Shown here: piece by piece, positions 4,955 to 64,000 of the stretch
Numbering within the stretch: the stretch's first letter is position 1
How the letters are laid out: each line of letters starts with the position of its first letter
Origin: Yoonia tamlensis
GTDB lineage: Bacteria > Pseudomonadota > Alphaproteobacteria > Rhodobacterales > Rhodobacteraceae
Direction: 5' to 3'
Assembly (NCBI RefSeq): GCF_900115105.1
Contig: NZ_FOYP01000001.1
Coordinates: 832,097 to 896,096 of the forward strand
DNA: 64,000 nt
Translations under genes and position numbers: made by a program
Notes under the pieces: generated by a model
Seen by the model: the letters and a program-made list of their open reading frames with translations, nothing else
Databases searched by the model: none
What the model was told of the DNA's origin: nothing

Positions 4955-5902
4955 TCAAAACTGCCAAGTAAATCCTGTCGCCTTTTCCGACACGTCCCAC
5001 AGGCGTGATGTGACGGTCTTGTCATAGGCATGCGGGTGTAGCGTGCCCTTGCCCACAGGGCCGACAAATTCCATGCGTCCGGTCGGGCCGTAAAGGGCGC
5101 GTTGTTCCAAGTCTTGTTCGGTTGCGCACAGCAGTTCCGGATATGCGCCTTTTTCTGCGGTTTGTACCATTGGTGATTTTGTCATCAGCCACCATGCCAC
5201 CCGCGTCATCAGGCCGCCGCTTGTGCTGATCAGCGATGTCGCAGAAGAACCGGGATGGCACACATAGACGCCCACGTTTTTGCCGGTGGTTTTGATGCGG
5301 TCCTGCAACTCATAGGCAAACATCATCTGGGCCAGCTTGGACTGGCTGTAGACGGGGTTGGCGCTATAGTTCTTGTCCCAGTTCATATCTTCGAACTGGA
5401 TCGTTTTGATTCCCATATTATACCCGAGACTGGACACAACCACGATCCGCCCTTGGGTCTGGGCGATACGGTCAAAAAGCATGCCGCACAGAACAAAATG
5501 CCCATAGTGGTTGGTGCCAAGCTGGCTTTCGAAACCGTCGACCGTCAGCTCTTGCACCGGTACCTGTGCAATCGCCGCGTTGCAAATCACGGCGTCGATA
5601 CGCGCAACCTTGGCGTTCACCTCTGCCGCTGCGTTGCGGACGCTGGCAAGATCGGACAGGTCCATGCGAATAAAACTTACGGCGGCATCTGAACCAAATG
5701 TATCTTGCAGGTCCTTGATCGCGGCTTTGGATTTCTCGGCACTGCGGTTCAGCATGACCACGGTCGCACCCTTTGACAGCAGAATGCGTGACGCCTGAAA
5801 ACCGACACCCGCGTTGCCCCCTGTGATGATATAGGTTTTCCCCTCAAGTGATCCGATCCGCGCAGGGGTCCAGCCGTCTGGTCCAAAAGTTGTATCCGCC
5901 AT
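4955..5902 (-). CDS. Short-chain dehydrogenase/reductase
   Basis: NAD(P)-dependent oxidoreductase of the SDR superfamily (about 315 aa), similar in layout to retinol dehydrogenase/protochlorophyllide reductase types. It has a Rossmann GGNAGVGF cofactor motif, DLSDLAS, an NAAIA block and a YSQSKLA active-site motif (Tyr-x-x-x-Lys). The start is set at 5902 (MADTTFGPDG), 8 nt after GGAGA; the open frame runs further upstream without a ribosome site. It is transcribed divergently from an AraC-type regulator with a 170-bp shared control region, so that regulator probably controls it. Substrate unknown. Confidence 0.9.
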   Translation of the reverse strand: MADTTFGPDGWTPARIGSLEGKTYIITGGNAGVGFQASRILLSKGATVVMLNRSAEKSKAAIKDLQDTFGSDAAVSFIRMDLSDLASVRNAAAEVNAKVARIDAVICNAAIAQVPVQELTVDGFESQLGTNHYGHFVLCGMLFDRIAQTQGRIVVVSSLGYNMGIKTIQFEDMNWDKNYSANPVYSQSKLAQMMFAYELQDRIKTTGKNVGVYVCHPGSSATSLISTSGGLMTRVAWWLMTKSPMVQTAEKGAYPELLCATEQDLEQRALYGPTGRMEFVGPVGKGTLHPHAYDKTVTSRLWDVSEKATGFTWQF

Positions 5903-6072
5903 TTTCATTCTCCGCTTGGGCGCAGGGCATCTGTGCCTTGGGCCGCTGTTTGATTTGTTGATATGTAGATAACTCTCGAAAGCTGTCAAAAATAGACCGG
6001 ATTGTCGCAATTACCTGCCTGATTGTATCGGGATGGTTGCCAAGGCATAGAATGTCGTCGTAGGTTCCCCGC

Positions 6073-6966
6073 ATGAGTAAAGAACAGATCATGCAGCTTA
6101 TTGCGGCCCGTACGTATAAAGACGGGTTAACCGAAACAGGTGTGGACGGCGTGCGCCTGTTTCGCGCAACGCAATCCATTCCCTGTGTGCCAGCAGTCTA
6201 TGAACCTTGCGTTGTCGCCATTGTCAGTGGCGCCAAAGAGGCCATTCTGGATGGTCAACGCTATGCATATGACAGCAGCCGCTACCTTTGCTGTCCGATG
6301 TCGATGCCGGTCAAGGCGGGCACGCCAGCTGCATCTGCAGACGCGCCGCTTTACGGGGTATTTATCGCGCTCGATTCGCAAATGATGACCGCCTTGAGCA
6401 TGGAAATGGACGCGGCAGGGGATGTTATTCGAACGGGTAGTGGCGGCCAGCGCGCACAGGGAATCCGGCTGGCCCGCTGGGACGATGGTTTTACAGAGGC
6501 GCTGCACAGGATGTTGCGCCTTGGGGATAGCCCGACGGATACGGCGGTGCTGGGCAATGCGCGCCTGCGCGAGCTGTATTATGCCATTCTCAAAGGCGAA
6601 GCGGGGGCGTTTGCGCGGCAGGCATTTGGCGCAGGAAATGCCATCGCTCGGGCGATTGCCCATGTCAGCGCGAAACTGGATTCGCCGGTTTCAATTGATG
6701 AAATGGCAACCCGCGCAGGCATGAGCCGCGCGGTTTTCCATCGCAAATTCAAGCAGGCAACCACAATGGCGCCGATCCAGTTTGTGAAATCAATGCGTCT
6801 GAACAATGCCGCGATGAAAATTGCGGGCGGCATGAAGGTCAATGCAGCGGCGCTGGAAGCGGGCTATGTCAGCCCTTCGCAATTCAGTAGGGAATTCAAG
6901 CGCATGTACGGGCAATCGCCGCGACAATGGAGCGACGCCCAACTGCTTCCGGCGGGCGTGGCATAA
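6073..6966 (+). CDS. AraC-family transcriptional regulator
   Basis: 297 aa. The N-terminal half matches the AraC_N type ligand-binding domain (VPAVYEPCVVAIVSGAKEA, then YLCCPMSMPVKAG). The C-terminal 100 residues hold the two helix-turn-helix motifs of AraC proteins (SIDEMATRAGMSRAVFHRKF and the second helix around AGYVSPSQFSREFKRMYG). This AraC subclass often sits next to an oxidoreductase it activates, as YqhC does with YqhD. Here it is divergent from the SDR gene, and the pair appears to have moved as one cassette. The inducer cannot be told from sequence. Confidence 0.93.
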   Translation: MSKEQIMQLIAARTYKDGLTETGVDGVRLFRATQSIPCVPAVYEPCVVAIVSGAKEAILDGQRYAYDSSRYLCCPMSMPVKAGTPAASADAPLYGVFIALDSQMMTALSMEMDAAGDVIRTGSGGQRAQGIRLARWDDGFTEALHRMLRLGDSPTDTAVLGNARLRELYYAILKGEAGAFARQAFGAGNAIARAIAHVSAKLDSPVSIDEMATRAGMSRAVFHRKFKQATTMAPIQFVKSMRLNNAAMKIAGGMKVNAAALEAGYVSPSQFSREFKRMYGQSPRQWSDAQLLPAGVA

Positions 6967-7029
6967 GGCACCGCAATCCCGCCCCCAAGCGCATCGCGGG
7001 CGACGCAAACCTTGCGCCGCCCCTTGCAA

Positions 7030-8847
7030 TCAGTCTTCCATTGCTTCGAGTTCATCAATGAAGCCTTCGATCATGGACAGGCCTTTGTCCCAGAATTTCG
7101 GGTCTGACGCATCAAGCCCGAAGGGGGCCAGCAGGTCTTTATGGTGTTTGGACCCGCCTGCGCGCAGCATGTCGAAATATTTGGTTTGGAAATCCGGATC
7201 GCCCTCGGCGTAGACCGCGTATAGCGCGTTCACCAGCCCGTCGCCGAACGCATAGGCGTAGACGTAGAAGGGCGAATGCACGAAATGCGGGATATAGGCC
7301 CAGAAGGTTTCATAGCCGGGTGCAAAGTCGAATACCTCGCCAAGCGATTGCGCCTGCACCGACATCCACAGCGCGTTGATATCATCGGGGGTAAGCTCGC
7401 CTTCGGCGCGTGCCGCGTGCAGTTTGCATTCAAAATCATAGAACGCGATCTGGCGCACGACCGTGTTGATCATGTCCTCGACCTTACCTGCGAGCAGGAC
7501 TTTGCGCTCTTCTTTGGTTTTGGCCCCATCCAGCAGTTTTTGGAACGTCAGCATCTCACCAAAGACAGAGGCGGTTTCAGCCAATGTCAGCGGAGTGGAT
7601 GACAGCAGTTCACCTTGTTCAGCTGCGAGTACCTGATGCACGCCGTGGCCCAACTCATGCGCCAAGGTCATCACATCGCGTGGTTTTCCTAGATAGTTCA
7701 GCATCACATAGGGGTGCACTGGCGTGACGGTCGGGTGCGCGAACGCGCCCGGCGCCTTGCCCGGTTTGACCGCGGCATCAATCCAGCCTTTGTCAAAGAA
7801 CGGCTGCGCGATTTCTGCCATCTTGGGATCAAAATCAGCATAGGCGGTCATCACGGTTTCGCGGGCCTCGTCCCAATTGACAGTACGTGTCGTTTCCATT
7901 GGCAGGGGCGCATTACGGTCCCATGTTTGCATCCGTTCCAGCCCAAGCCATTTCGCCTTGAGCGCATAATAGCGGTGCGACAGGCGCGGGTAGGCGGCAA
8001 CAACGGCGTTGCGCAGGGCCTCGACCACTTCGGGCTCAACGTGGTTGGACAGATGCCGCCCGGCTTGCGGGCTGGGCATTTTGCGCCAGCGGTCTTCGAT
8101 CTCTTTTTCTTTGGCCAGCGTGTTATGGACGCGGGCAAAGATTTTGATGTTGTCTTGGAACACTGCAGCCAACGCATGGGTCGCGGCCTCGCGCTTGGCG
8201 CGGTCTTGTTCGGTCAGCAGGTTGAGCGTCGCCTCAAGGTTCAGGGTTTCGCCGTCCACCTCAAATTCCAGCCCCGCCATTGTTTCGTCAAACAACCGGT
8301 TCCATGCAGCGGCCCCGACGGTGGATTGATCATGCAGGAATTTTTCCAATTCATCCGACAACTGGTGCGGTTTCATCGCGCGCATCCGGTCAAACACGGG
8401 TTTATAGCGCGCTAGATCCGCGTTTTCGGCCAGAAGCCCCGCAAGATGGTCATCGTCCAGGCGGTTGAATTCCAGCCCGTAAAACACCAGCGGTGTGGTC
8501 GCATTGGTGATCTTGTCCTGACAATCGGCCATGAATTTGGCGCGGTTGCTGTCGGTGGTGATCTGGTAATACCGCAGCCCCGCATAGGACATGATGCGCC
8601 CCGCGATCACGTCGATCTGTTCATAGCGCTGCACCGCCTGCAACAGACCCGCCGCATCCAGCGTTGCCAGTTTGCCCGCGTAATCGGCAGCAAATGCGGC
8701 GCATTCAGTATCAAGCCAAGCCAGATCGCGGGTCAGTTCGGTTGCGTCGGGGCTGGTGTAAAGATCGGTCAGATCCCATTCGGGAAGATCGCCGAAACTC
8801 TTGCCGCCAGCGGCGTTTGCGTCAAATACGGGGGTGGGGGTGTTCAT
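7030..8847 (-). CDS. pepF: Oligoendopeptidase F (M3 family)
   Basis: Cytoplasmic zinc metallopeptidase that degrades oligopeptides. About 605 aa, normal for PepF. It contains the M3 zinc motif HELGH within TLAHELGHGVHQ and a downstream ETASVFGEML segment supplying the third zinc ligand. The start at 8847 (MNTPTPVF) follows GAGG at good spacing; codons further upstream would include that ribosome site. The 3' 169 bp are duplicated at 4737-4905. No defect is visible in this copy. Confidence 0.96.
   Translation of the reverse strand: MNTPTPVFDANAAGGKSFGDLPEWDLTDLYTSPDATELTRDLAWLDTECAAFAADYAGKLATLDAAGLLQAVQRYEQIDVIAGRIMSYAGLRYYQITTDSNRAKFMADCQDKITNATTPLVFYGLEFNRLDDDHLAGLLAENADLARYKPVFDRMRAMKPHQLSDELEKFLHDQSTVGAAAWNRLFDETMAGLEFEVDGETLNLEATLNLLTEQDRAKREAATHALAAVFQDNIKIFARVHNTLAKEKEIEDRWRKMPSPQAGRHLSNHVEPEVVEALRNAVVAAYPRLSHRYYALKAKWLGLERMQTWDRNAPLPMETTRTVNWDEARETVMTAYADFDPKMAEIAQPFFDKGWIDAAVKPGKAPGAFAHPTVTPVHPYVMLNYLGKPRDVMTLAHELGHGVHQVLAAEQGELLSSTPLTLAETASVFGEMLTFQKLLDGAKTKEERKVLLAGKVEDMINTVVRQIAFYDFECKLHAARAEGELTPDDINALWMSVQAQSLGEVFDFAPGYETFWAYIPHFVHSPFYVYAYAFGDGLVNALYAVYAEGDPDFQTKYFDMLRAGGSKHHKDLLAPFGLDASDPKFWDKGLSMIEGFIDELEAMED
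7033..7201. repeat. Direct repeat (pepF 3' end), partner of 4737-4905
   Basis: This stretch and 4737-4905 differ at 9 of 169 positions and run in the same direction. Together they bracket the SDR and AraC genes. Homology stops abruptly inside pepF at about 7201 (GGATCG shared, then unrelated sequence). Confidence 0.85.
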
Positions 8848-8919
8848 GTCAGACCTCATTGTTTGGGCATAACATAGGGGCGGCACGGGGTAGTTGAAAG
8901 CCCTATGGCCGTGATCTGT

Positions 8920-9873
8920 CTAGGCGGTCACCCGTGCGTTCACGGCAGAATTGAAATGTGCGGCGGTGGCGTCCAGAATTTCGTTTTGCACGGCGCTGTC
9001 CATCAGCATTTCATGCTGGCCGCCTTGGATGACCCGCAACTGCCCGTCCGGCCAGCGCGCCATCCGGTCGTGGATGCGGGTCGGGTCGACGATCGCCTCG
9101 TTGCTGCCAAGGAACGTCAGGCAAGGGATATTTTGTGGCGATGGTATTTGGTTCAGCCTGTGCATTTCGCGCAAGGATGTATTGAGCCAACGCAGCGATG
9201 GCCCGCCAAGTGCCAGATCCGGATAGCTGCGCAGCTGATCGCCTAGGGTTTCATACATCGCACGGTCATTGGTCAGCGTATTGCCTTCAAAGGCCGCGCG
9301 CAGCACATAAGGTTGCGCAACCTGACCCGGTGCAAGTACCTGATCAAATCCAAGCTGGCGGCTGACCGCAGAAAGCCCCCACGCCAGCGGGCGCAGGGCG
9401 ACCGCCATCTGAATGCCCCACATCGGCGCCGAAAACATTGCAGCCTTAACATCAAGCCCTTCGTGAAGTGCGCGCAGGCCGATGCAGCCGCCCATCGAAT
9501 GGCCGATCAGGAAATAGGGTTCGGGCAGGTCTTGCGCCTTGGCATAGGCAATAACGGCAGCAACATCGTGCTGGAAATCGCGAAAGCGGCCGACATGCCC
9601 AATGGCGCGGTTCGGGGTCATCCGGTCTGCGATTCCTTGGCCACGCCAGTCAACCACTACGCTGGCAAAGCCGCGCTGGTGCAGCGCCTTGGCCGTGGCC
9701 CCGTATTTTTCGATAAATTCGGTGCGGCCGGGAAAGATCAACACGGTCCCAGTTGCACTAGATTTTGGCCAATGGGCCGCGCGGATGCGCAGCCCGTCGG
9801 AGGTCTGTAACCAATGGGCGGCACCACCTGCTGGCCCGTTTGCGATATCGTCAAAAAGGGGTGCCGGTTCCAT
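8920..9873 (-). CDS. Alpha/beta hydrolase, lysophospholipase-like
   Basis: 317-aa soluble serine hydrolase of the Hydrolase_4/PldB type. The nucleophile elbow GHSMGG is intact, preceded by DWRGQGIADR; the Asp region (FLGSNEAIVDPTR) and the His near the end (QGGQHEMLMDS) complete the triad. It starts 2 bp after the SCP2 gene stop, so the two are co-transcribed and may act on lipid-like substrates together. The substrate is not determined. It is a useful contrast to the triad-less hydrolase domain at 61261-63108. Confidence 0.9.
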   Translation of the reverse strand: MEPAPLFDDIANGPAGGAAHWLQTSDGLRIRAAHWPKSSATGTVLIFPGRTEFIEKYGATAKALHQRGFASVVVDWRGQGIADRMTPNRAIGHVGRFRDFQHDVAAVIAYAKAQDLPEPYFLIGHSMGGCIGLRALHEGLDVKAAMFSAPMWGIQMAVALRPLAWGLSAVSRQLGFDQVLAPGQVAQPYVLRAAFEGNTLTNDRAMYETLGDQLRSYPDLALGGPSLRWLNTSLREMHRLNQIPSPQNIPCLTFLGSNEAIVDPTRIHDRMARWPDGQLRVIQGGQHEMLMDSAVQNEILDATAAHFNSAVNARVTA

Positions 9874-56710: not shown

Positions 56711-56786
56711 GCCCCTATAGCTCAGCTGGTAGAGCAACTGATTTGTAATCAGTAGGTCCGCGGTTCGAGTCCGTGTGGGGGCACCA
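56711..56786 (+). tRNA. tRNA-Thr (anticodon TGT)
   Basis: 76 nt with encoded CCA. Acceptor GCCCCTA pairs with TGGGGGC, D-arm GCTCAGCTGGTAGAGC, anticodon stem ACTGA/TCAGT with loop TTTGTAA (anticodon TGT) and T-arm with GTTCGAGTC. A -10-like TATATG lies at 56664-56669. The 3' end abuts a decayed integrase region, the usual integration target. Confidence 0.97.
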
Positions 56787-56951: not shown

Positions 56952-58120
56952 ATGCCCCTAAGCGATATCAAGATTCGAAATCTCAAACCACGCGAGAAAG
57001 CGTGCTAAGTCAGCGACTTTGAAGGGCTGTTTGTGCTTGTGAAGGTTAGCGGATCAAAGTCGTGGCGCTTTAATTACCGTATCGATGGCAAAGAGCGTTT
57101 GTTGGTCATCGGTGACTATCCAGCAGTAGCGTTAGCCAAGGCGCGTCAAGTGCGCGACATTGCCAAGGCCTTATTGGCGGATGGCATTGACCCCAGCGAA
57201 GCCAAGCAAGAAGAGAAGCGTATTAGGCTTGAGGCCAAAGGTCAGACCTTTGAAAAAATCGGTGCCGCATTTCTTGCTAAACAACGCAAAGAGGGGAAGT
57301 CAGCGGCCACACTGTCGAAGACAGAATATCACCTGAAGCTCGCGAAACGTGACTTTGGCCGCTAGCCGATAACAGAGATTACCGCGCCTATGATCCTTAA
57401 GATGCTTCGTAAGGTTGAGGCGAAAGGCAATTATGAGACAGCGCACCGCCTGCGTGCAAGTATCGTATCTATATTTCGCTGTTCTGTTGCCAGCGGGATA
57501 GCTGAGACTAATCCAACCAATGCGCTGCGCGACGCCTTGATCCGCCCCACCCGTGTTCACCGTGCTGCAATTATCGAACCCAAAGCACTGGGACGCTTAA
57601 TGGTCGAAATCGATGGATTCGAAGGGCAGGCAACGACGCGCATTGCTCTAAAGCTGTTGGCGATCCTTGCCCAAAGACCGGGGGAACTGCGTAACGCGAT
57701 GTGGGAAGAGTTCGACCTAGCCGAGCGCGTTTGGTCAATTCCTGCGGCTAAGAAGAAAATGCGTCGTGATCATAATGTACATCTGCCTGATCCAGCGATC
57801 ACGTTGCTGGAACAACTGCGCGCCATGAATAACAAAGGCGACTACCTGTTTCCGTCTTTGCGAACATGGACGCGCCCTATGTCTGAAAACACCCTGAACG
57901 CGGCATTGCGCCGTATGGGGTATTCTGGCGACGAAATGACCGCCCATGGTTTCAGAGCCTCATTTCGACATTGGCCAATGAAAGCGGATTGTGGAACCCT
58001 GATGCTATCGAACGTGCCTTGGCGCACGTCGAGAAAAACGAAGTGCGCCGCGCCAATGCGCGGGGCGAACATTGAGATGAGCGGGTAAGGTTGTCAGGGT
58101 GGATTGCAGACATTCGCTGA
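56952..58120 (+). pseudogene. P4-type tyrosine integrase, decayed
   Basis: From ATG 56952 (MPLSDIKIRNLKPREKAC) the frame is interrupted by TAA at 57006 and TAG at 57363, then shifts near 57965, and what should be a Trp codon near the end is TGA (RRANARGEH*DERVR). The rest is a recognisable P4-like integrase: DUF4102 part (WRFNYRIDGKERLLVIGDYP), catalytic LAQRPGELRNAMW, and HGFRAS box. Integration at the tRNA-Thr 3' end is implied; the enzyme is dead. Confidence 0.9.
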
Positions 58121-58760: not shown

Positions 58761-59345
58761 ATGCAAAAAAACAAATCCACCATGCTGGCAGTTGCAGCAC
58801 TGGCCATAATCGCAGTGATAGCTTTGACATTTGTAATGACGATGGGGCGCACTGCTGACGAACCGTTTGTAAAATTAGAAGAAACCGCCCCCTCTGGCCC
58901 GGTGATGGTCGTCGAACAAAGCGCGGTCGGTTCATGGACTGTTGCAACTTATGAGATTTTACAAACGCCGGATGGTGCTTTGAGCGCAATGCTAACGTTT
59001 GATACTGCCAACTCCGAAGAATGCGCCAATTTTGTGAAACAGGCACAACCATGGCTGACGATGTGTGATATCGCAGCTACGCAGGGGTATCCGGTCATCA
59101 TGGAAGGGTCTCTTGTTCAATCATATCAAGACACTACGGTGTATGATGGGATGCTAGTGCGCACCGATACATCAGATGAGTACCGCGCCGCCTTTAGCGA
59201 GGCACCGTTTGATAGCTATAACATGCGCATGAGCCCGGTTCCCGGCAATAACCTTGATCAAGCCCAAAACTTTTTCTTTGATGCTGACGCCAGCGCGGCA
59301 CGTTCGGAGATCCTGAGGATCGAAGAAATGCGAGAGAAAGGATAA
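58761..59345 (+). CDS. Membrane-anchored hypothetical protein
   Basis: 194 aa: one N-terminal helix (AVAALAIIAVIALTFVMTM) anchors a periplasmic domain of about 155 residues with two cysteines (ECANF, LTMCD). GGAGACGATGA is a good ribosome site. The next gene starts 6 bp later. Downstream of palindrome A. No family recognised; the gene is likely part of the island cassette. Confidence 0.75.
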   Translation: MQKNKSTMLAVAALAIIAVIALTFVMTMGRTADEPFVKLEETAPSGPVMVVEQSAVGSWTVATYEILQTPDGALSAMLTFDTANSEECANFVKQAQPWLTMCDIAATQGYPVIMEGSLVQSYQDTTVYDGMLVRTDTSDEYRAAFSEAPFDSYNMRMSPVPGNNLDQAQNFFFDADASAARSEILRIEEMREKG

Positions 59346-59351
59346 GTTCTG

Positions 59352-59924
59352 ATGACACGCTTATTACAGGTGCTCATCGCCGCATCCCTCTTCGCAATTG
59401 GGCAGACGGTGAATGCACAAGATATCAATGTTTGCGGAATGCGCGATGCAAGATTTAACGCCCAATTAGAGGCGGTTCTTGAACAAGATTGGCTGTTACA
59501 AATTGGCCCCAGCGTTGCCGAGGTTTCGGGGACTGCCATCCCAGACGGTTTTCTCTCTCCGCTACTGAATGTCACTGTGTCGTTCGACAATGGAACGCTT
59601 GTGATCCAAGGCGACAGTCTGCGCCGCGAATTTGTGTTGGATTGGGAACACGAAAGAACTGCCAATTTTGATGCCCCCGACCCCACAAACCCCGCATACA
59701 GCGACTTCCCAGACACGGGCGAGGTCGACACGCTATTTGAGTGCGGTCTCGCCGGAACTCCGTTTTTGAGTGGATATGGCGTCTCTACAAATGCAAATGC
59801 GCCGCAATTGTCGATCTATCTATGGATTCAGTCTGACACCAGCGTGATGGGCATGTCTGTTGCAGAGGTTAGAAATGGCGCTGCCCGCAGTATGCTGAGG
59901 TTTAGGAAAGTGGAAATAGAGTGA
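59352..59924 (+). CDS. Secreted hypothetical protein
   Basis: 190 aa with a signal peptide (LLQVLIAASLFAIGQTVNAQ) and a mature domain with cysteines at NVCGMRD and LFECGLAG. AAAGGA precedes the ATG. It is the second gene of a two-gene operon with the anchored protein; both are probably exported. Function unknown. Confidence 0.75.
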   Translation: MTRLLQVLIAASLFAIGQTVNAQDINVCGMRDARFNAQLEAVLEQDWLLQIGPSVAEVSGTAIPDGFLSPLLNVTVSFDNGTLVIQGDSLRREFVLDWEHERTANFDAPDPTNPAYSDFPDTGEVDTLFECGLAGTPFLSGYGVSTNANAPQLSIYLWIQSDTSVMGMSVAEVRNGAARSMLRFRKVEIE

Positions 59925-59949: not shown

Positions 59950-61254
59950 TCAGCTCACACCCATAGCTGTCGCGCGTGGCTGAAACGCATAATAGCTTAT
60001 GCTGGCCACCATAAACCCAACAATTGTGGCAAAATCCTGTGCGAAAAAGTTGACGAAAAGTGCGCTGAAGACACCGGCGTTCATGGAAATGAAAGCAGCC
60101 CGGGCGCCGGGAGCTTTGAGAAACAAACTACCCAAAGCCACAGGAAGAAAAACAGAGAGCGTGTTAAAGGCCGTTATGACCTGATTGATCAGATCTCCCA
60201 TCAAGATCGAGACGACAGCCGTTATTGTTAGCAATGCGACGACAATGAAACGCATGCGTTTGATGCTCAGATTGGGGCCAAGCCCGTTGGTGAGCGGCAT
60301 GATGAACGTGTCTACCGATGACATGATGCAGGCCGTGAGCATTGCAATGACGACCCAACCCATCCCTGCGGGGAGCATCATTTCAAAGGCGGCTTGCATC
60401 GTTTGGGCTGGGGATGCAAAATATCCAACCAGACAGATCACTCCGTAAATAAAGCCACATACGATCCCCGCAACCACATAGCTTTGTCGCGCGATTTGCG
60501 GGGTTTGTGCAATGGTGATGCGTTGCCAGTTATCCACCGCAAGCAATGCGCTGAAAGGGATAAACAGACAGATCCCAATGAGAATGGCTGGGTGATGCGT
60601 CCCGAATGTGATGACGGGCGCAGTTGGTGTTGTGGGAACCGTTAGGTTGAGCGCAACGAAACCTATCGCCCCGAGAAGTACGGCAGCTTGGAAGACATCG
60701 CTTTGGACGGCTGCTTGATAGCCGCCTATCACTAGATAGAGGCCCAAGACCGCAGTGCAGATTACCACGGCAACTGTGTATTGTCCGGGTAGACTGGCCT
60801 GCACCAAAAGCCCGAGCGCCCCAATTTGGACTGCCGAGCGCAATACAAACACTATCGCAAGTGGCATCCAGATAAGGCTCTGATGACGCAAGCCATGGCT
60901 TTTGGTGATCAAATCAACAAGGCCGACGATGCCAAAATGCTCCCCGCGTGCATGTAATATCGGCGCCAGCGCCGCGCATAAAAACAGCCCCGACGTATAG
61001 GCCAAAGCAATCGCAAATCCTATGATCGGGCTGTTTTGGCTAAACAAGAACAAGGCCAGAAAGGTCCCAACCCCGACATTGCCACTGATTGCGCCTGCGG
61101 TTGTGCAGACCCAACCATTGCCGCCAGAGTTCAGCGCAAATTGCCCAGCGTCAACAATGCCACCGCGTCGCAGGTAATCCCAAGCGGACATCACAAGCGG
61201 AACCAACAACACGCCAAGAACTGCAAGGGTTTGGGCAGCGCTTACATGGAACAT
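59950..61254 (-). CDS. Sodium:solute symporter family protein
   Basis: 434 aa, about eleven to twelve hydrophobic helices, of the SSS fold. GGYQAAVQSDVFQA and ITIAQTPQIARQS fit the central SSS blocks (the TGGMRGSVTSDVxQ and NWQRxxAA-like segments; here AVDNWQRITIAQ). Substrate unknown. It starts 6 bp after the hydrolase-LuxR stop on the same strand, so it shares its operon. Confidence 0.88.
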   Translation of the reverse strand: MFHVSAAQTLAVLGVLLVPLVMSAWDYLRRGGIVDAGQFALNSGGNGWVCTTAGAISGNVGVGTFLALFLFSQNSPIIGFAIALAYTSGLFLCAALAPILHARGEHFGIVGLVDLITKSHGLRHQSLIWMPLAIVFVLRSAVQIGALGLLVQASLPGQYTVAVVICTAVLGLYLVIGGYQAAVQSDVFQAAVLLGAIGFVALNLTVPTTPTAPVITFGTHHPAILIGICLFIPFSALLAVDNWQRITIAQTPQIARQSYVVAGIVCGFIYGVICLVGYFASPAQTMQAAFEMMLPAGMGWVVIAMLTACIMSSVDTFIMPLTNGLGPNLSIKRMRFIVVALLTITAVVSILMGDLINQVITAFNTLSVFLPVALGSLFLKAPGARAAFISMNAGVFSALFVNFFAQDFATIVGFMVASISYYAFQPRATAMGVS

Positions 61255-61260
61255 AATGCG

Positions 61261-63108
61261 TTAACGCCGCGTGATCAGGCCAAGCGGCCCCTTCAAAAGC
61301 CGCGCCACGAGGTCAGTTTGCCCCTTAACCCCCACTTTCTCGTAAATACGCTTAAGATGCGTCCGGGTGGTATGGATCGACACGCCAAGCAGCGTTGAAA
61401 TCGCATCTGGTGACAACCCGTCAAGAATACCTACCGCTGCCAGCGATTCTTTGCGTGTTAACCCATAGGCAAGTTGCAACAGTTCGGCACGATTGCTGTT
61501 ATCCATGTCATGCCCCGTCGGCCGCAAGATCAGCACCGCTGCGGGCCCACCACGTTCAAGGGCAGTTTGACGCAACGCGGCTGGGCGGAAATGAAACCCT
61601 ACGGCCTCTGAGTCAACAATAAGAAGTTGCTCACCGGACCCTTTACGACAGGCCGCGCGGAATGAAGCATCGCAATACGACTGTGCAATGCGTGTCAGTG
61701 CATTAAGGTCGACGGGCGCAGGGCGCGGATGACCCAACTCTACGACCGCATCAAAGAAACTGTCATTGGCATAAGAAACTTCGAAATTTGCCGACACAAC
61801 GGCGATCCCGATTTGAAATCGATCAATCACATTCTGAAAAATCGCCCCAAGGGCTGCGGACGACATCAGTTTCTTATTCAACGCATAAGACCGTTCCATA
61901 TGCGGCATCAATGCCCTTAGAACGCTGTCAAATTGCGCAACACTTAGGGGGGTGTCAGCGGCCATCGCATGGGTCCAGCGATAAAGCAATTCAACCCAGC
62001 GGTCATCGTCTTCAATATGCGTATAGCAAAACGCGACTAGTTCTTCTGGTGTGAAAATGCGATCAAGGTCTTCATGTCCAAGCCGCCGCAAGATATCAGA
62101 GCTCACATCAGCCATGTCAATTGACGTGTCCGCAGAAATCGTCTCATGGCTGTCGTGTGTTTTTCCACACCAATCGCTGATCAAAGTGGAAATCTGCAAA
62201 CGCTTTTCGTCAATCACCATGCCTGCGCGGCCGCCTTCGACGCACAAGCTATCGACTTGTGTTGCGCCCATTTTTGCAAAGTGTTTTTTCATCGGCACAA
62301 CAAAGGCGCCACTGGCGGTCATCGGATCGTCGCTGCCATACATGATAAGAAAGGCAGTCCCTTTTGCCAATTGCACCGCCTTGTCGCGTTTCCACGCGTT
62401 ATCAATGCCACGAAACATTTCATAGAAATACCCGGTGGTTGGTGTCGGCCAAGCCAAGGGATCGGCCAGCAAAACATCCGTAATTGCACGATCCGAGGAC
62501 ATGACATCAATCAAATGATCACGATCCGTAAGATGCGCCCCAAGAAAGCTATAAAGCTGATGCATGGTCAGATCGTCAGGGCTATCCTCAGGATTAAACT
62601 GAGCCCTCGCACGCGAAATCCCACGCGCCAATTTCATGATCACAGGTTGATTTGGCGGCGGGGCTATCATCACGATTTTGCTGGCAAGGTCAGGCCATGT
62701 TTTCAACACCTCAAGCACGAGTGGACTGCCGATGTTGGGCGCAACGATCAAACGGTCTTGCCACGGCACATCTTCAAATGCGGTCTTCATCGAGAGGATC
62801 AGATCGGCCACGAGTTTCTCCCAGCCTGCCCCAATTTCCATATGTCCCAAAGGTGCGCGCGGTCCTGATGAATGCCCATGCCCGCGCAAATCCGCCGCAC
62901 AGACGTTCCAGCCGTGTTTGGCCAGCCCACGCATTGTTTCTGCCAGATTAAGCGAATGTTGCGCCGTGCCGTGGATCAAAAAAGCAGTACCACGCGCAGT
63001 CCCTACCGCAGCGATTTTCCTTCGTGCCAAGGCCACACCGTCAAGTGCGAAAATCTGGTCTTCTGTTATTGGTATTTCCGCTTTTTGCGCATGACGAACG
63101 TATGGCAT
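61261..63108 (-). CDS. Pseudo-hydrolase/PAS-like/LuxR fusion regulator
   Basis: 615 aa, three parts. Residues about 30-310 are an alpha/beta-hydrolase fold (FLIHGTAQHS, ADLRGHGHSSGP). Its nucleophile elbow reads APNIG, with Asn125 in place of Ser, and the His position (EGGRAGM) has Ala295; the Asp site (GSDDP) remains. About 420-530 is PAS-like (RFQIGIAVVSANFEVSYAN). 545-610 is a LuxR HTH (TRKESLAAVGILDGLSPDAI, then THLKRIYEKVGV). I infer a ligand-sensing regulator without hydrolase activity. Operon with the symporter. Confidence 0.85.
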   Translation of the reverse strand: MPYVRHAQKAEIPITEDQIFALDGVALARRKIAAVGTARGTAFLIHGTAQHSLNLAETMRGLAKHGWNVCAADLRGHGHSSGPRAPLGHMEIGAGWEKLVADLILSMKTAFEDVPWQDRLIVAPNIGSPLVLEVLKTWPDLASKIVMIAPPPNQPVIMKLARGISRARAQFNPEDSPDDLTMHQLYSFLGAHLTDRDHLIDVMSSDRAITDVLLADPLAWPTPTTGYFYEMFRGIDNAWKRDKAVQLAKGTAFLIMYGSDDPMTASGAFVVPMKKHFAKMGATQVDSLCVEGGRAGMVIDEKRLQISTLISDWCGKTHDSHETISADTSIDMADVSSDILRRLGHEDLDRIFTPEELVAFCYTHIEDDDRWVELLYRWTHAMAADTPLSVAQFDSVLRALMPHMERSYALNKKLMSSAALGAIFQNVIDRFQIGIAVVSANFEVSYANDSFFDAVVELGHPRPAPVDLNALTRIAQSYCDASFRAACRKGSGEQLLIVDSEAVGFHFRPAALRQTALERGGPAAVLILRPTGHDMDNSNRAELLQLAYGLTRKESLAAVGILDGLSPDAISTLLGVSIHTTRTHLKRIYEKVGVKGQTDLVARLLKGPLGLITRR

Positions 63109-63264
63109 TCTCGGTTTTTGCTCCAGTGTGGTGTGCGCAGGTAGGTGGTCAATCGCAAAGAGAATCCGTCATTGCGCCATCAATCGGAAAATGAATGTAT
63201 GAACAATCTGAACGCACTATGACGCGGTTTGCTTTGCGGTTCAATGCAACCAACTGTGGTCAGG

Positions 63265-63280
63265 TCACCCATTTGAGTGA
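63265..63280 (+). promoter_or_regulatory. Palindromic site B (LuxR-type operator candidate)
   Basis: TCACCCA-TT-TGAGTGA, the same half-sites as site A with a different central pair. It is 57 bp before the VWA start (site A is 51 bp before its gene) and lies in the 229-bp divergent region with the regulator gene. Probably the target of the LuxR domain. Confidence 0.6.
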
Positions 63281-63337
63281 GGGCAAGCTAATGGACGGGT
63301 GATAGGCTTCGAAAATTGCACCATAAGGATTGAACGG

Positions 63338-64000
63338 ATGCACGTTGCAAAATTGAAGACTATGTTATTTGCAGGCGCTTTAGCGATGATTAGTAGCAAT
63401 TTTGCACATGCCCAAGGTGATGCCCAACAAAGTGATTTAATGGTCGTTTTGGATGGGTCCGGGTCGATGTGGGGGCAGATTGACGGGCGCACCAAAATTG
63501 AGATTGCGCGTGAAACGCTGTCGCAAGTGTTAGAAGAAACTACCACCGAAATGAATATCGGCATGATCGCCTACGGCCACCGCGAACGCGGCGCGTGCGG
63601 CGATATTGAACTGCTTGTGCCTGTAACCCCTGCGGCGCAATCGGTGTCGCAAATCATCAGCGCCGCATCCAACCTGCAGCCCAAAGGTAAAACGCCCTTG
63701 TCTGATGCCGTCCGAATGGCTGCTGAAACAATGCGCTACACGGAAAATGCGGCGACCGTTGTGCTGGTTACAGATGGAATTGAAACCTGCAATGCCGATC
63801 CTTGCGCGCTGGCGTCCGAGCTTGAGGCTGCGGGCATTGATTTCACCGCGCATGTCGTGGGCTTTGGTTTGAGCGCCGATGAGGGCCAACAGGTTCAATG
63901 CTTAGCTGACATAACGGGTGGTGCCTATTTTTCGGCAGCAGATGCCGGAGGACTTCAGGATGCTTTGACTCGCGCACTCAATCACCCAGAGATCACCTTG
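63338..64000 (+). CDS. VWA-domain secreted protein (3' truncated)
   Basis: Open to the window end (at least 221 aa). Signal peptide (MLFAGALAMISSNFAHAQ), then a von Willebrand factor A domain with an intact MIDAS: DGSGSM, the Thr in GKTPLSDA and VTDGIETC. The start follows AAGGATTGAACGG. It probably binds a metal-dependent protein ligand outside the cytoplasm. The family is common in roseobacters with more domains downstream, beyond the window. Confidence 0.9.
   Translation, partial: MHVAKLKTMLFAGALAMISSNFAHAQGDAQQSDLMVVLDGSGSMWGQIDGRTKIEIARETLSQVLEETTTEMNIGMIAYGHRERGACGDIELLVPVTPAAQSVSQIISAASNLQPKGKTPLSDAVRMAAETMRYTENAATVVLVTDGIETCNADPCALASELEAAGIDFTAHVVGFGLSADEGQQVQCLADITGGAYFSAADAGGLQDALTRALNHPEITL

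Follow-up and report, generated by a model that had tools for sequence, protein, structure and literature searches.

The locus described here raises the question of what a hydrolase domain that has lost catalytic residues could be doing at the front of a transcriptional regulator. The gene is found at 61261..63108 on the reverse strand of the window, by which we mean the whole 64,000-nucleotide stretch of Yoonia tamlensis DNA that was analysed, and its ORF, Pfam matches and AlphaFold model (mean pLDDT 84.6 for the whole protein) delimit a 615-aa regulator composed of a pseudo-hydrolase, a PAS-like part and a LuxR part. The hydrolase domain, of the monoacylglycerol lipase type, spans residues about 13-318 (62155..63072, reverse strand), and it presents both the alpha/beta-hydrolase fold in the model and the Hydrolase_4 profile (PF12146, residues 38-291, 8.2e-25, above the cut-off). 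At the other end, residues 550-601 (61306..61461, reverse strand) match the GerE domain of LuxR/NarL-type helix-turn-helix (HTH) regulators (1.2e-05, above the cut-off), so that the union of a hydrolase fold and a LuxR HTH in one protein, as the original prediction had proposed, is borne out by Pfam. In NCBIfam, every match of the regulator was under its cut-off.

A linker connects the hydrolase domain to a PAS-like fold at residues about 411-530 (61519..61878, reverse strand), which was delimited by a Foldseek search with a model of the C-terminal half. This region had been predicted as well; fold similarity in predicted models suggests it, and Pfam gives no PAS match in the regulator itself; in the relative L095, PAS_8 reached 19.2 bits, under the cut-off of 21.8. 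The C-terminal model (mean pLDDT 73) is weaker than that of the whole protein, and its Foldseek matches to VqmA (4.2e-05, rmsd 12-14) and EL222 (6.6e-03) have low TM-scores. AHL-type LuxR proteins rank just behind the VqmA matches, with weak rows for CviR, SdiA, RhlR and TraR at 4e-03 to 1e-02 that have the HTH in common, and no Pfam match to an autoinducer-binding domain was found in the regulator at E<=1. The VIA-align rows for this model, from whose alignment L003 was omitted because of X letters, span mostly the HTH, so that families absent there may still be related. According to the models, the regulator would resemble the PAS/LOV-LuxR regulators VqmA and EL222 in that its LuxR HTH comes after a PAS-like fold, but it carries an extra pseudo-hydrolase of 320 residues in front, and the likeness says nothing of DPO or flavin.

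Residues 123-127 of the regulator read APNIG, placing N125 (codon 62734..62736, reverse strand) in the nucleophile elbow between a modelled strand (119-124) and helix (127-135), whereas Asp is kept at the acid position 261 (62326..62328, reverse strand) and residue 295, in the place of the catalytic His, is Ala (62224..62226, reverse strand). Ten hydrolases were aligned with the regulator by MAFFT, namely the standard serine hydrolase P0059 together with nine of the 17 further Hydrolase_4 matches in the genome of the regulator. N125 falls in the nucleophile column, which is Ser in nine and Asp in one (L056), D261 falls in the acid region, and A295 falls where each of the ten has His. We then counted these positions in 106 family rows, made up of the query and the relatives pooled from three protein searches with P0059 excluded; two rows without residue 125 and three without residue 295 were set aside from the respective counts. 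Position 125 was Asn in 104/104 rows having a residue there (query included), position 261 was Asp in 103/103, position 294 was Arg in 101/103, and position 295, mostly Ser, Ala, Thr or Gly, was His in 0/103. A first alignment of 49 rows had given N125, D261 and R294 as invariant and S27, A13, G6, T2 and P1 at position 295. Going by these alignments, the loss of two triad residues is a trait of the whole family and not an oddity of a single genome, and the Asn in the elbow, the missing His and the retained acid that had been noticed in this one protein are all upheld. L095, which at 33% identity is the most distant relative recovered, retains none of the three residues (Ala at position 125, Glu at 261 and Ala at 295), so that the Asn itself is dispensable for the family as a whole. 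Ser128 was considered as a substitute nucleophile and discarded, as it is Ser in only 5/49 and 6/104 rows of the two alignments; with His absent from position 295, the alternative of a triad rebuilt from Ser128 and another His fails.

Databases also contain further hydrolase-LuxR fusions whose triad is intact, none of which was recovered here. Among the matches of the three protein searches (about 8,000 candidates scored in each), no member of the same fusion family with an active triad was found. When the hydrolase part alone was used as query, 12 of the 13 matches belonged to the regulator family, five of them being short or broken proteins without a LuxR Pfam match, and the last one was P0059 (1.3e-11), which bears the motifs GHSMG and GARHE. 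Genome-wide, PF12146 is matched best by a Hydrolase_4 protein with GHSMG and GGQHE encoded in the window itself (8920-9873, reverse strand), a candidate for an active-type control.

The domain has been maintained nonetheless. Between the window and L002, a Loktanella sp. D2R18 locus whose regulator is 93% identical, dN/dS amounted to 0.10 in the hydrolase part and 0.114 in its cap, 0.134 in the PAS part and 0.046 in the HTH, against 0.448 in the linker, and these values, which come from one pair, indicate that the hydrolase domain is subject to purifying selection. In 73 rows thinned to below 80% identity, the best-conserved stretches were the elbow (0.77) and residues 136-240, which include the cap (0.66), on par with the HTH (0.645), whereas the remaining hydrolase stretches 17-120 (0.56) and 241-318 (0.55) were conserved less than the HTH; the PAS part scored 0.52 and the linker 0.36. 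In the one Rhizobium plasmid protein examined, the PAS-LuxR half is joined to a different N-terminal part. Because the hydrolase domain is under purifying selection and is fused to a half that carries another N-terminal part in the Rhizobium protein, we favour a sensing role for it on this comparative evidence, although its conservation is also compatible with a role as scaffold or in dimerisation.

We consider it reasonably likely that a ligand is bound in the presumably dead pocket and that the PAS-HTH half converts this binding into transcription of the neighbouring genes. The regulator would be a cytoplasmic one-component regulator whose hydrolase domain has probably been catalytically dead since early in the history of the family and would serve as a binding domain ahead of the PAS-like domain and the LuxR-type HTH. 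Small lipids, esters or solutes imported by a partner symporter are conceivable as the ligand, which could settle beneath the conserved cap and alter dimerisation or the exposure of the HTH, and the regulator might then switch the neighbouring symporter, VWA, SH3-like and LemA genes.

The symporter is a sodium:solute symporter family protein of 434 aa (59950..61254, reverse strand; PF00474, SSF, 5.8e-07, 29.2 bits against a cut-off of 22.8), and its gene begins 6 nt past the stop codon of the regulator, downstream on the same strand. A crude scan gave 14 hydrophobic segments, some of them overlapping, and no relatives were found in the PDB at E<=1. On the other side, the start of a divergent gene for a 558-aa VWA protein (63299..64000, forward strand) extends beyond the end of the window, the whole ORF being present in L049 (3396-5072), and the intergenic region between both genes (63109..63298), by its position between the ORFs, is a candidate operator. 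The window and L002 versions of this region align over most of their length and a promoter scan was at chance level (3 found against 3.3 expected), so we claim no operator motif. Two proteins without Pfam match adjoin the symporter in the window (58761-59924) and are also present in L002. Behind the VWA gene, past the window end, L049 encodes a pair of SH3-like proteins as well as a protein of 842 aa (5048-9436); the L002 homologue of the latter has no Pfam match.

The neighbourhood was compared across 21 loci, namely that of the window's genome, 14 from a species-wide scan and six more; two of the 21 (L005 and L087) share one genome, G816, and seven of 13 additionally fetched stretches duplicated earlier loci and were not recounted. 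A VWA-protein homologue was near the regulator in 18/21 loci, the symporter in 13/21, and LemA and SH3-like proteins in 11/21 each, with at least one of the four at all 21, while the same queries gave 0/32 at control loci with other LuxR genes, which belong partly to other phyla and are in some cases shorter than the family loci (L037 excluded). The domain names recovered among the neighbours were VWA, SH3_3 (under the cut-off in one of two proteins), LemA and DUF3137, and a literature search of open-licence PMC papers brought up no publication on a gene cluster with LemA, DUF3137 and VWA. Two gene orders were seen, the symporter following the regulator directly and in the same orientation in seven loci (one of them the L002 remnant described below) and lying divergently, about 2-2.8 kb upstream of the regulator, in six. 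VWA homologues occur in seven relatives besides G000 (8/29 including it), among which G294 and G396 were scored negative for the regulator.

In 15 of the 16 known regulator-bearing genomes (G783 was left out), a symporter match at E<=1e-10 was found in 11, always as a single copy; its distance to the regulator was 13 to 2,734 bases and thus below 3 kb in every case, which together with the locus counts makes the symporter a real partner, as had been supposed from the operon in the window. At E<=1e-20 it was present in 1/385 genomes of the class and 2/388 of the family, and these are the same genomes that carry the regulator (1/385 and 2/394; the two family samples need not be identical); among the genomes sampled, the symporter was never seen without the regulator. 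The converse does not hold, as the symporter was not found nearby at 8/21 loci nor at E<=1e-10 in 4/15 genomes, and the G065 copy contains a TGA. In L002 (9845-10456) it is a shortened, stop-containing remnant adjoining the intact frame of the 93%-identical regulator. Since the symporter can be missing, a remnant or TGA-bearing, the regulator does not depend on it everywhere.

This pairing bears on the main rival to the sensor reading, according to which the dead domain is a module for dimerisation or protein docking, for instance one that reads the state of the symporter by contact, with no small-molecule ligand. MalT is controlled through contact with its transporter, and the physical pairing of the regulator and symporter genes and the conservation of the domain would both suit such a role. 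However, the domain persists at the loci and in the genomes just mentioned where the symporter is absent, and its best-conserved stretches are the elbow and the region that contains the cap; we regard this explanation as unlikely. Much less probable still is that the domain remains catalytic by another mechanism, through Asp261 and other conserved polar residues: the near-invariance of D261 and R294 and the further conservation of D73, R75, H77, R168 and D178 could be read in this way, but both the nucleophile and the His are lost, Ser128 is rare, and L095 has Glu for Asp261 and Ala at both other positions. That the domain is a functionless fossil in decay is extremely improbable in spite of the lost triad and the degenerate symporter of L002, as the dN/dS of 0.10 (one pair) speaks against decay, most relatives among the matches listed are full length (about 600 aa), and N125, R168 and W239 are among the residues invariant across the thinned set.

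Returning to the sensor reading, several known systems resemble the regulator in part. It shares its domain type with monoacylglycerol lipases and other Hydrolase_4 proteins (such as 5o7g, 6eic and 3hju), from which it differs by Asn for Ser, mostly Ser, Ala, Thr or Gly for His, and the fusion to a regulator. In Bacillus, RsbQ, with a hydrolase fold and an intact triad, and RsbP, with a PAS domain, are separate proteins of one stress pathway. The regulator likewise would bring together a hydrolase fold and a PAS in one signalling path, but here they are fused and the triad is lost. RsbQ appears as outgroup in a figure of PMC3531792, and according to that article GID1 lost only the His, while the Ser and Asp of this receptor remain and make contact with gibberellin. 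This corrects the original prediction, which had taken GID1 as a precedent for losing two triad members: the pattern of GID1 is not that of the regulator, whose Ser position is Asn, and as GID1 keeps Ser and Asp, the loss in the regulator is deeper and came by a different route. GID1 is thus a fair functional analogy, that of a non-catalytic alpha/beta-hydrolase fold possibly used for sensing, although inexact in the residues lost, and it is a plant protein without HTH whose output is a partner protein. DUF3530 and other alpha/beta-hydrolase families also lack the catalytic triad and are presumed non-enzymatic, and the parts of PMC11878206 that deal with them describe no LuxR fusion.

Triad-less alpha/beta-hydrolases are therefore already known, but the LuxR-fused version appears to be new within the literature searched, as no publication on such a fusion was found among open-licence PMC papers judged by title and the opening of the abstract. 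Bacteria would have turned a lipase fold into an apparent receptor on a transcription factor, a route that we did not find described in that literature. A more tentative and rather doubtful extension is that the locus forms a self-contained sensing module, possibly mobile, in which a pseudo-lipase receptor, a PAS-LuxR half and a dedicated ligand-importing transporter control an envelope programme. If so, bacteria would possess a DNA-binding equivalent of the hormone receptors that plants built on a hydrolase fold, and would have arrived at it via loss of nucleophile and His. The paired transporter offers a direct handle on the ligand. With about 100 proteins of uniform triad loss, the family has the size and uniformity needed to test the change from enzyme to receptor.

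Members of the family are uncommon and unevenly distributed. Scanning one genome per species (84,980 species) recovered 14 full-length regulator loci, and as the scan relies on two short patterns, it is bound to miss some; the regulator was present in 9/297 genomes of the family of G774 and in 5/87 of that of G775 (centres counted), with two copies in G816. Among the named holders are Loktanella, Jannaschia, Nitratireductor, Hoeflea, Roseibium, Stappia and Pelagibacterium. In the window, a tRNA-Thr (56711-56786), a tyrosine integrase split across two frames (57033-58088) and a decrease of the GC content (0.56-0.60 before, 0.52-0.53 after) just ahead of the cluster suggest that it may sit on an (old) genomic island. 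No second tRNA-Thr 3' end that could mark an island border was found in the window or in L049, and genome-wide, allowing up to one mismatch in 18 bases, only the tRNA itself was recovered. Six phage records matched, none covering 80% of the query, and the five matches listed involve the hydrolase part alone (22-23% identity). In Roseibium aggregatum S1616 (L096, NZ_CP128603.1), with no symporter match within the 19.8 kb fetched, a copy of the regulator is borne by a 349-kb plasmid with VWA and SH3-related genes nearby.
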